Shown here one piece after another: positions 17,624 through 18,526 of a DNA stretch of 64,000 nucleotides; position 1 is the stretch's first letter; every line of letters starts with the position of its first letter. The translations under genes and the position numbers were made by a program. The DNA is taken from NCBI GenBank assembly GCA_903909375.1, contig CAIVVM010000041.1, positions 1-64,000 of the forward strand, written 5' to 3'. The notes below the pieces were generated by a model that was given only the letters and a program-made list of their open reading frames with translations, was not told where the DNA came from and ran no database searches. Source of the DNA: an uncultured Alphaproteobacteria bacterium. GTDB lineage: Bacteria > Pseudomonadota > Alphaproteobacteria > Caulobacterales > Caulobacteraceae.

Positions 17624-17652
17624 GGCGCTCCTAAGTCGATGCTTTAGCCGCT

Positions 17653-17702
17653 CTCCTCCCCCGTCGGGGGAGGGGGACCGCGCGAAGCGGGGTGGAAGGG
17701 GC
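17653..17702 (+). repeat. Palindromic repeat family A, copy 1 (left arm of a 50-bp inverted repeat)
   Basis: A 50-bp GC-rich unit. It begins with the hairpin CTCCCCC-GTC-GGGGGAG, then GGGG, then a smaller hairpin CGC-GAA-GCG, and ends in GGGGTGGAAGGGGC. It matches the reverse complement of 18084-18133 at 48 of 50 positions, so the two copies face each other and enclose the nuclease pseudogene. It starts 30 nt past the dehydrogenase stop and could act as a terminator, but has no T-tract. Confidence 0.88.
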
Positions 17703-17736
17703 TTGCCGGGAGCAGCGTGCCTGACATTCTGACCCT

Positions 17737-18065
17737 ATGTACGCCCCGAGGACGACAATCCGTCGCGCGCGGTCGCTTCGCCGCCGGAGGCCCGCCTGTG
17801 GGTCGCGCTGCGTGGGAAAACCCAGGGAATGCGGTTTCGCCGCCAACATCCTATCGGTCCCTATGTGCTCGACTTCTATTGCGACGCCGCCAAGCTCTGC
17901 GTTGAAGTTGATGGGCAGACGCACTGGCTGGGCGATGCTCAGGCGCGCGACGCGGAACGCGACGCCTGGCTGGCGTTGCATGGAATCCGGACGCTGCGCA
18001 TCTCGGCGAGCCTGGTGTTTGAGGATATGGACGCCGCGCTTCGGATGATCGAGGCGCACACATAG
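17737..18065 (+). pseudogene. DUF559 (Vsr-like) endonuclease gene disrupted by a frameshift
   Basis: Members of DUF559 are small PD-(D/E)XK-type nuclease-fold proteins of about 115-125 residues. The N-terminal part (MYAPRTTIRRARSLRR) reads in one frame from the ATG at 17737. The rest (SPPEARLWVALRG, MRFRRQHPIGPYVLDFYC, LCVEVDGQTHW, FEDMDAALRMIEAH) reads in another frame from about 17784 to the stop at 18065. The core nuclease residues (Asp in LDFYC, Glu in VEVDG) are intact. The second frame has no start codon before the ATG at 17829, so a full product needs a frameshift; a net loss of about 7 or 10 nt explains it. A short product from 17829 (78 residues) is possible. Inverted repeats enclose it. 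Confidence 0.78.
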
Positions 18066-18083
18066 GCGCTCCGTGCGACGGCG

Positions 18084-18133
18084 GCCCCCTCCACCCCGCT
18101 CCGCGCGGTCCCCCTCCCCCGACGGGGGAGGAG
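18084..18133 (-). repeat. Palindromic repeat family A, copy 2 (right arm of the inverted repeat)
   Basis: Reverse complement of copy 1 with two differences in 50 positions. It contains the same outer hairpin (CTCCCCC-GAC-GGGGGAG on this strand) and the same inner hairpin. It begins 18 nt after the stop of the nuclease pseudogene. With copy 1 it defines a 481-bp unit (17653-18133) that looks like one element. Confidence 0.88.
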
Positions 18134-18157
18134 AACGGCGGTCGCCGCGTCAGGCCA

Positions 18158-18352
18158 TCAGTTGAAGGCCTTGTTCATCTCGAGAGCATTCAATCGGTCA
18201 AGCATCGACAATGTCGTAATCAGCATGAAGAGACCCGAGGCCAAAATGCCGAGGCCTGGAAATAACGAACTGATCGTCCAGAACCACGGGTTTATACGAC
18301 GCTTCCTTGCCATGATGAATACAATAGTTGCGTAAATCGATTGAATGACCAT
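18158..18352 (-). CDS. Small predicted membrane protein of unknown function
   Basis: An open frame for 64 residues with one clear hydrophobic stretch of two adjoining segments (WFWTISSLFPGLGILASGLFMLITTLSM, given here as landmark residues WFW to LSM). A second possible start at 18313 (MARKRRINPWFW) gives a neater protein with a positively charged N-terminus, about 51 residues. Neither start has a convincing ribosome-binding site. The surrounding 230 nt are visibly lower in GC than the rest of the window, which raises the chance of either recent acquisition or non-coding DNA. Not recognised; treat as tentative. Confidence 0.38.
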   Translation of the reverse strand: MVIQSIYATIVFIMARKRRINPWFWTISSLFPGLGILASGLFMLITTLSMLDRLNALEMNKAFN

Positions 18353-18526
18353 GAGCGGAAGAAATCAAATGAGCATTGATTGCATGGCTTTCTCCAACAG
18401 GGCTAGGCAAACATAACGTCCTGATACAAGTTGGCCCAGACTTGATCCACAAGACCGCAAGAGCTACCGGTCCTTGGTCCGGAGAGCTACATTGGCAGGC
18501 CAGCCCGCATCAGGTTATGCCGGGGC

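Follow-up and report, generated by a model that had tools for sequence, protein, structure and literature searches.

A DUF559 nuclease gene between PIT/TM-type inverted repeats: a candidate family of small bacterial mobile elements

What kind of genetic unit is a short nuclease gene enclosed by two facing copies of the same structured repeat? Such a gene lies in the window analysed here, a stretch of 64,000 nucleotides from an uncultured Caulobacteraceae bacterium (contig CAIVVM010000041.1) whose genome is nearest to Phenylobacterium among named relatives. A first-pass annotation had described it as a unit resembling REP elements and their RAYT transposase, with a PD-(D/E)XK nuclease replacing the transposase, and as now decaying. 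The bracketing of DUF559 genes by repeats, the inward-facing repeat pairs and the empty sites reported below support this description, with DUF559 as the presumed catalyst.

The whole unit spans 493 bp (17647-18139, unstranded) and consists of a DUF559 gene between two inverted arms. The left terminal repeat, of PIT type (17647-17702, plus strand), was delineated by inverted-repeat search, sequence reading and DNA folding; the right one (18084-18139, minus strand) is its inverted copy. The arms measure 56 nt each, are complementary at 53 of 56 positions (95%) and lie 381 nt apart. The 50-bp inverted repeats annotated earlier (17653-17702 and 18084-18133) agree at 48 of 50 positions, two positions differing. 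In the left arm, a stem is formed by CCTCCCCC (17655-17662) and GGGGGAGG (17666-17673) around the loop GTC, followed by a second hairpin at about 17677-17693 and by the 3' tract GGAAGGGG (17694-17701), which is one change away from the exact mirror GGAGGGGG. The right arm has its stem at 18124-18131 and 18113-18120 and carries the exact mirror GGAGGGGG on the bottom strand (18085-18092). Hairpins had been proposed for both termini, and they are present in the sequence and in DNA folds; their stability, however, is near that of shuffled sequences (z = -1.8 and +0.1), little more than expected. Support for the hairpins comes from their conservation across loci; fold energy alone gives them none.

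Between the arms, the frameshifted DUF559 (PF04480) gene was placed at 17737-18065 (plus strand) on the basis of two intact relatives, L004 and L230. A profile search of the window matched PF04480 at 17772-18053 (plus strand, 78 bits), in agreement with the annotated frame, and the catalytic core (DFYC...EVDGQTH) is in frame over 17772-18065. The genome also contains an intact sister unit (locus L004 on contig C13, C13:1847-2340; 494 bp, ORF of 113 aa). This sister holds 13 extra bases near 17781, enclosed by short direct repeats (CGCCGG); the window copy has therefore undergone a 13-bp deletion there, and the frameshift first noticed near 17785 is real at the level of this assembly. On its two sides the sister unit has stretches that seemingly code for similar protein termini, which gives the appearance of a gene end duplicated around the unit. 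The window unit stands between genes and not inside an intron or intein of a host gene, and its flanks are the terminal repeats.

PIT elements were reportedly described by Hoyne and Maher in 2000 and 2002. Read towards the gene, the arms at DUF559 loci follow a common plan, with a pyrimidine arm, a short loop, a purine arm, a spacer (often holding a second hairpin) and a final purine tract. This tract is the purine arm in mirror order, in which A may remain or give way to T; the mirror is exact in 50% of 195 distinct arms, compared with 5.5% when stems were swapped between elements. A direct-repeat reading of the tract fitted 14% of the arms and was discarded. Among the arms that fit the mirror at 70% or better, the base opposite a stem A was A in 171 cases, T in 112, G in 7 and C in 2, and the base opposite a stem G was G in 1005 cases and another base in 18. 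A purine-motif intrastrand triplex needs mirror order with the triads G*GC, A*AT and T*AT. Judged by their succession of pyrimidine arm, loop, purine arm, spacer and mirror tract, the arms are to be assigned to the published PIT/TM class, and they could in principle fold into an intrastrand DNA triplex of this kind. The shortest arms may also be read as G-quadruplexes, although these would not require the mirror match. The PIT/TM motif is present in more than 260 genomes, with 23 TM elements listed in E. coli K-12, where the motif formed triplexes in vitro by CD and NMR; transposases or integrases were never met near it (Holder et al., 2015, PMC4666352).

The protein encoded by the unit matches the family model of DUF559 and, weakly, those of MTES_1575, Vsr and DUF2726, and does not match Y1_Tnp; at 16.5 bits it stays under the curated Vsr family cut-off of 27. 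A structure model made from L230, which is 93% identical to the intact sister, reached a mean pLDDT of 90. Its closest solved folds were 3hrl (DUF559, Z 14.3), the homing endonuclease I-Bth0305I (11.6), Vsr (9.7) and TnsA (6.9). Residues D50, E61, H67, D76 and R79 were invariant in two alignments. On this model, DUF559 is predicted to be a PD-(D/E)XK nuclease of the Vsr/EDxHD fold, about 110-130 aa long. To our knowledge, DUF559 is a large family to which no function has been assigned, and we know of no case in which this nuclease fold runs transposition alone.

The window genome contains eight DUF559 genes, seven of them bracketed by near-perfect inverted repeats, which differ in sequence and share one plan. 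To see whether facing repeats flank other DUF559 genes, a check that the first-pass annotation had suggested, we collected 144 loci, mostly from Proteobacteria, from 30 genomes within the genus and 120 within the phylum, and counted a flanking inverted repeat at a score of at least 35. Such repeats flank 102 of the 144 loci (71%) and 1 of 284 neighbouring control spans of the same size (0.4%); with flanks swapped between DUF559 loci, only 7.8% reached the score. A second, named set, which was obtained by one scan of contigs with a single protein query and overlaps the first in genus, gave 60 of 77 loci and 0 of 151 control spans. Repeats of triplex geometry pointing inward were found on either flank at 112 of 133 loci and 1 of 127 controls. 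These counts place the inverted repeats well beyond chance and answer the check in the affirmative. Repeats pointing outward on both sides were seen at 17 of 133 and 13 of 72 loci, and in some flanking repeats, such as those of L070, L073 and L180, the orientation is opposite, with the purine tract outward. In Caulobacter vibrioides T5M6 (L264, 1380-1960), and at L250, facing PIT-type repeats bracket the DUF559 gene at a distance of 11-12 bp.

Since DUF559 genes on Deinococcus and Pseudanabaena plasmids are also bracketed, the arrangement is not confined to Proteobacteria; several genes on cyanobacterial plasmids are not bracketed. Three cyanobacterial plasmid genes whose flanking repeats are not clearly matched (L178, L181 and L186) adjoin DUF1156 or BREX pglX methylase genes, neighbours that hint at a defence-linked branch of DUF559. 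PADLOC defence-system models gave only weak, partial matches. With the score used, no flanking repeat was detected at about 20-30% of DUF559 genes, including ycjD, the DUF559 gene of E. coli K-12 (L177, NC_000913 1351204-1351760). A published PIT (TM_ECO no. 9) lies about 170 bp from the 3' end of ycjD, and none lies on its 5' side. The ycjD region is kept in 3362 of 5426 complete E. coli genomes, and about 40% are without most of it.

The hairpin and the gene also occur together at the level of whole genomes. Genomes were called hairpin-rich at 10 or more copies of the pattern CCTCYCCN{4,11}GGRGAGG. The median copy number was 53.5 in genomes with DUF559 and 1 in genomes without, and 21 of 24 of the former were hairpin-rich compared with 6 of 95 of the latter. 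A replicate that applied the same motif threshold to 179 additional genomes gave 41 of 55 and 10 of 124. These genomes are related, and kinship was handled by a class-only test alone, which gave 15 of 16 with DUF559 against 0 of 14 without, and 28 of 32 against 5 of 23 in the replicate. Four genomes (G083, G253, G298 and G242) carry 55-116 hairpin copies with no DUF559 found, through either nuclease loss or incomplete assembly, and some genomes with DUF559 are without the hairpin types counted. The presence of Y1/RAYT transposases was unlinked to hairpin number, Y1 being found in 13 of 27 motif-rich and 58 of 92 motif-poor genomes; a RAYT/Y1 transposase was accordingly rejected as the true mobiliser.

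We propose, with a probability of roughly 0.74, that the window unit belongs to a widespread family of small mobile elements in which the DUF559 nuclease recognises and nicks its own folded ends, and PIT pairs are the offspring. A full element would comprise a single DUF559 gene and, facing each other on its two sides, terminal repeats of the PIT/TM class. When the strand is single, as in lagging-strand synthesis or repair, the nuclease would recognise the folded end of the repeat type that belongs to it and nick there. The full element, or a gene-less derivative with the same ends, could then be excised or copied, and host repair would seal it in at another place with no target duplication. 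Scattered PIT pairs would be non-autonomous, MITE- or REPIN-like offspring of full elements. In the papers found, no DUF559 protein was reported to cut these repeats.

The main rival to this proposal is homing, in which PIT pairs pre-exist and spread by other means, DUF559 cuts gene-less pairs and repair copies the gene into them, much as homing endonucleases behave with introns and inteins. It would fit with a homing endonuclease, I-Bth0305I, as the second-closest solved structure, and with the typed arms of a locus always matching. The gene-less pairs themselves bear on this reading. The repeat of the window genome has about 39 occurrences, and 22 of the 29 best copies stand in inward-facing pairs; the scatter over thousands of sites that had been named as evidence against a DUF559 unit is not seen. 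Eight gene-less pairs of this genome were compared with the intact unit. Two of them, C36b and C52, keep its first ~120-133 bp and its last ~66 bp, and the others share only the terminal ~50-70 bp. Because C36b and C52 retain both ends of the gene region, they derive from full units and not the reverse, contrary to what homing would predict.

Filled and empty sites, a comparison that the first-pass annotation had called for, were found at several places, including the window unit's own. For three of the window genome's gene-less pairs, genomes of the same genus have orthologous sites at which the pair is missing. G080, G198 and G200 carry a full unit between glyQ and glyS; G177 and G181 lack it, and there the flanks join at CTTTCCCT/GGGGGACGC. 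Another site holds a full unit in G100, a ~200-bp pair of the same repeat family in G080, and neither in G189, G198 and G182; the first two states are as homing would have them. The L071 site, for which there was no clean alignment with G100, was left out. The intergene of the window unit, between a hydroxyacid dehydrogenase gene and rpe, measures ~943 bp compared with ~114 bp in a Phenylobacterium deserti MAG (G222, locus L312), from which the unit is absent, ~330 bp of the length difference being DNA outside the unit. This DNA, between the unit and rpe (18140-18500), contains a 64-aa minus-strand ORF (18158-18352) and is likewise absent from the P. deserti MAG. At the E. coli PIT sites hrpB-mrcB and alx-sstT, presence and absence as well as internal losses were seen; their junctions were not clean enough for use as insertion evidence. 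Target duplications, which had also been suggested as a check, showed no excess over swapped flanks (mean 3.47 and 3.37 nt).

Since relatives can lack an entire repeat pair at the orthologous site, the pairs are gained or lost as units. Presence and absence alone do not prove direction; at sites where the unit is missing from most relatives, gain is the favoured reading. The absence of entire pairs from relatives and the deletion derivatives both count against homing as the sole route, and we consider it unlikely as the explanation of these loci.

A further reading, in which PITs spread by errors of host replication or repair or by another transposase, and DUF559 is a VSP-like nuclease for repair or structure clearing that is merely carried along, can be confronted with the match between protein and repeat. 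We sorted the arms into seven repeat types. Wherever both arms could be typed they were of the same type (55 of 55 loci), and no DUF559 gene was found between arms of differing types. On a protein tree of 96 loci, built from a short alignment and with many forks unresolved, the seven types need 15 changes, compared with a mean of 59.6 after shuffling, and none of 200 shuffles was as low. The nearest protein in another genome had the same repeat type in 83 of 96 cases (after shuffling of labels within genus, 26 would be expected), and the nearest in another genus in 48 of 96 (23.6 expected). The DUF559 clade predicts the repeat type. Host background does not explain this match, because single genomes hold three or four types, each with its own protein.

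The passenger reading draws on the Vsr fold and weak Vsr sequence match of DUF559, and on the local instability that Holder et al. (2015, PMC4666352) connect with TM repeats. It also draws on VsrA, a Caulobacter DUF559 protein which is responsible for the SOS response in cells without a methyltransferase and was interpreted as a mismatch-repair nuclease, an interpretation that counts against a mobiliser (PMC12907096). The clade-by-clade match, the agreement of typed arms, the internal-deletion derivatives of the DUF559 unit and the missing Y1/RAYT association speak against it, and make it highly improbable. Because DUF559 is bracketed by the PIT/TM repeat, varies with it and co-occurs with it, DUF559 is probably what drives the spread of this repeat in the genomes of bacteria. 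The weakest alternative, that GC-rich terminator hairpins round short genes mimic matched inverted repeats by chance, can be dismissed: the repeats are G/C-rich and intergenic, with fold energies near those of shuffles, but the control spans (1/284 and 0/151) rule out such an origin of the bracketing, and the same repeat recurs genome-wide in inward pairs, with arms that match wherever both could be typed.

How, then, do these units compare with known systems? The published PIT/TM_ECO elements have the same plan as the arms described here, CCCTCTCCC-loop-GGGAGAGGG-NNN-GGGTGAGGG, and were noted in inverted pairs in E. coli. The published motif, however, has a short second loop where many of our arms have a second hairpin, and other stem sequences. 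The published work met no mobility gene near the motif and does not mention DUF559. In the searchable literature, with most subscription papers and bioRxiv outside the search, we found no mobiliser of PITs and no paper that unites DUF559 with inverted repeats; the repeats were known and the domain was known, and their union did not appear in the papers searched. PIT/TM repeats, known since 2000 with no explanation of their spread, and DUF559 now give each other a testable role. If DUF559 moves the repeats, there would be a bacterial mobile-element family built on such a nuclease fold, with three-stranded DNA as the recognised end.

Vsr and the Caulobacter protein VsrA share with DUF559 the fold (Z 9.7 to Vsr) and the active-site region, and VsrA has the same domain. 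Vsr works in connection with a cytosine methyltransferase and with mismatches, whereas the DUF559 genes studied here go with flanking repeats and score under the Vsr cut-off. VsrA of C. crescentus, which is said to induce SOS, carries a DUF559 domain (PMC12907096), and a DUF559 that moves repeats would allow an alternative reading of the DNA damage it causes. EDxHD homing endonucleases, represented by the second-closest fold I-Bth0305I (Z 11.6), are likewise enzymes of mobile elements; they sit in introns or inteins, whereas DUF559 genes stand alone and intergenic between inverted triplex-type repeats. The CIR and other MITE-like repeats of Caulobacter are also short intergenic repeats of Alphaproteobacteria; unlike DUF559 units, CIR is ~110 bp long, bears GANTC, and is listed without terminal inverted repeats and with no nuclease partner (PMC2229807). 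With classical IS elements and MITEs, DUF559 units have in common terminal inverted repeats and small internal-deletion copies, the gene-region ends being clear in two of these, but not a target-site duplication.

A close parallel is the REPIN-RAYT system, in which, as in DUF559 units, structured repeats occur in inverted pairs, a single nuclease gene is flanked by them and matched to them clade by clade, and gene-less copies exist. The enzyme is a different one, HUH (Y1) in REPIN-RAYT and a Vsr-fold PD-(D/E)XK nuclease in the DUF559 unit, and the GTAG/CGTC tag at the hairpin foot of REPIN-RAYT and IS200-IS605 is absent from the arms, which have triplex-type ends instead. A further difference from REPIN-RAYT is that one genome holds several copies of the full DUF559 unit, and that relatives differ in whether a full unit is there. 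The DUF559 unit works like REPIN-RAYT and is not a member of it, since enzyme class and repeat tag differ. There is an even chance, in our estimate, that these units represent a class of transposable elements in which the sole protein, a PD-(D/E)XK nuclease of Vsr/EDxHD type, is the transposase, the ends are recognised as triplexes of single-strand DNA, and PIT/TM repeats are the non-autonomous descendants; were DUF559 shown to be the transposase, that class would be a new one.
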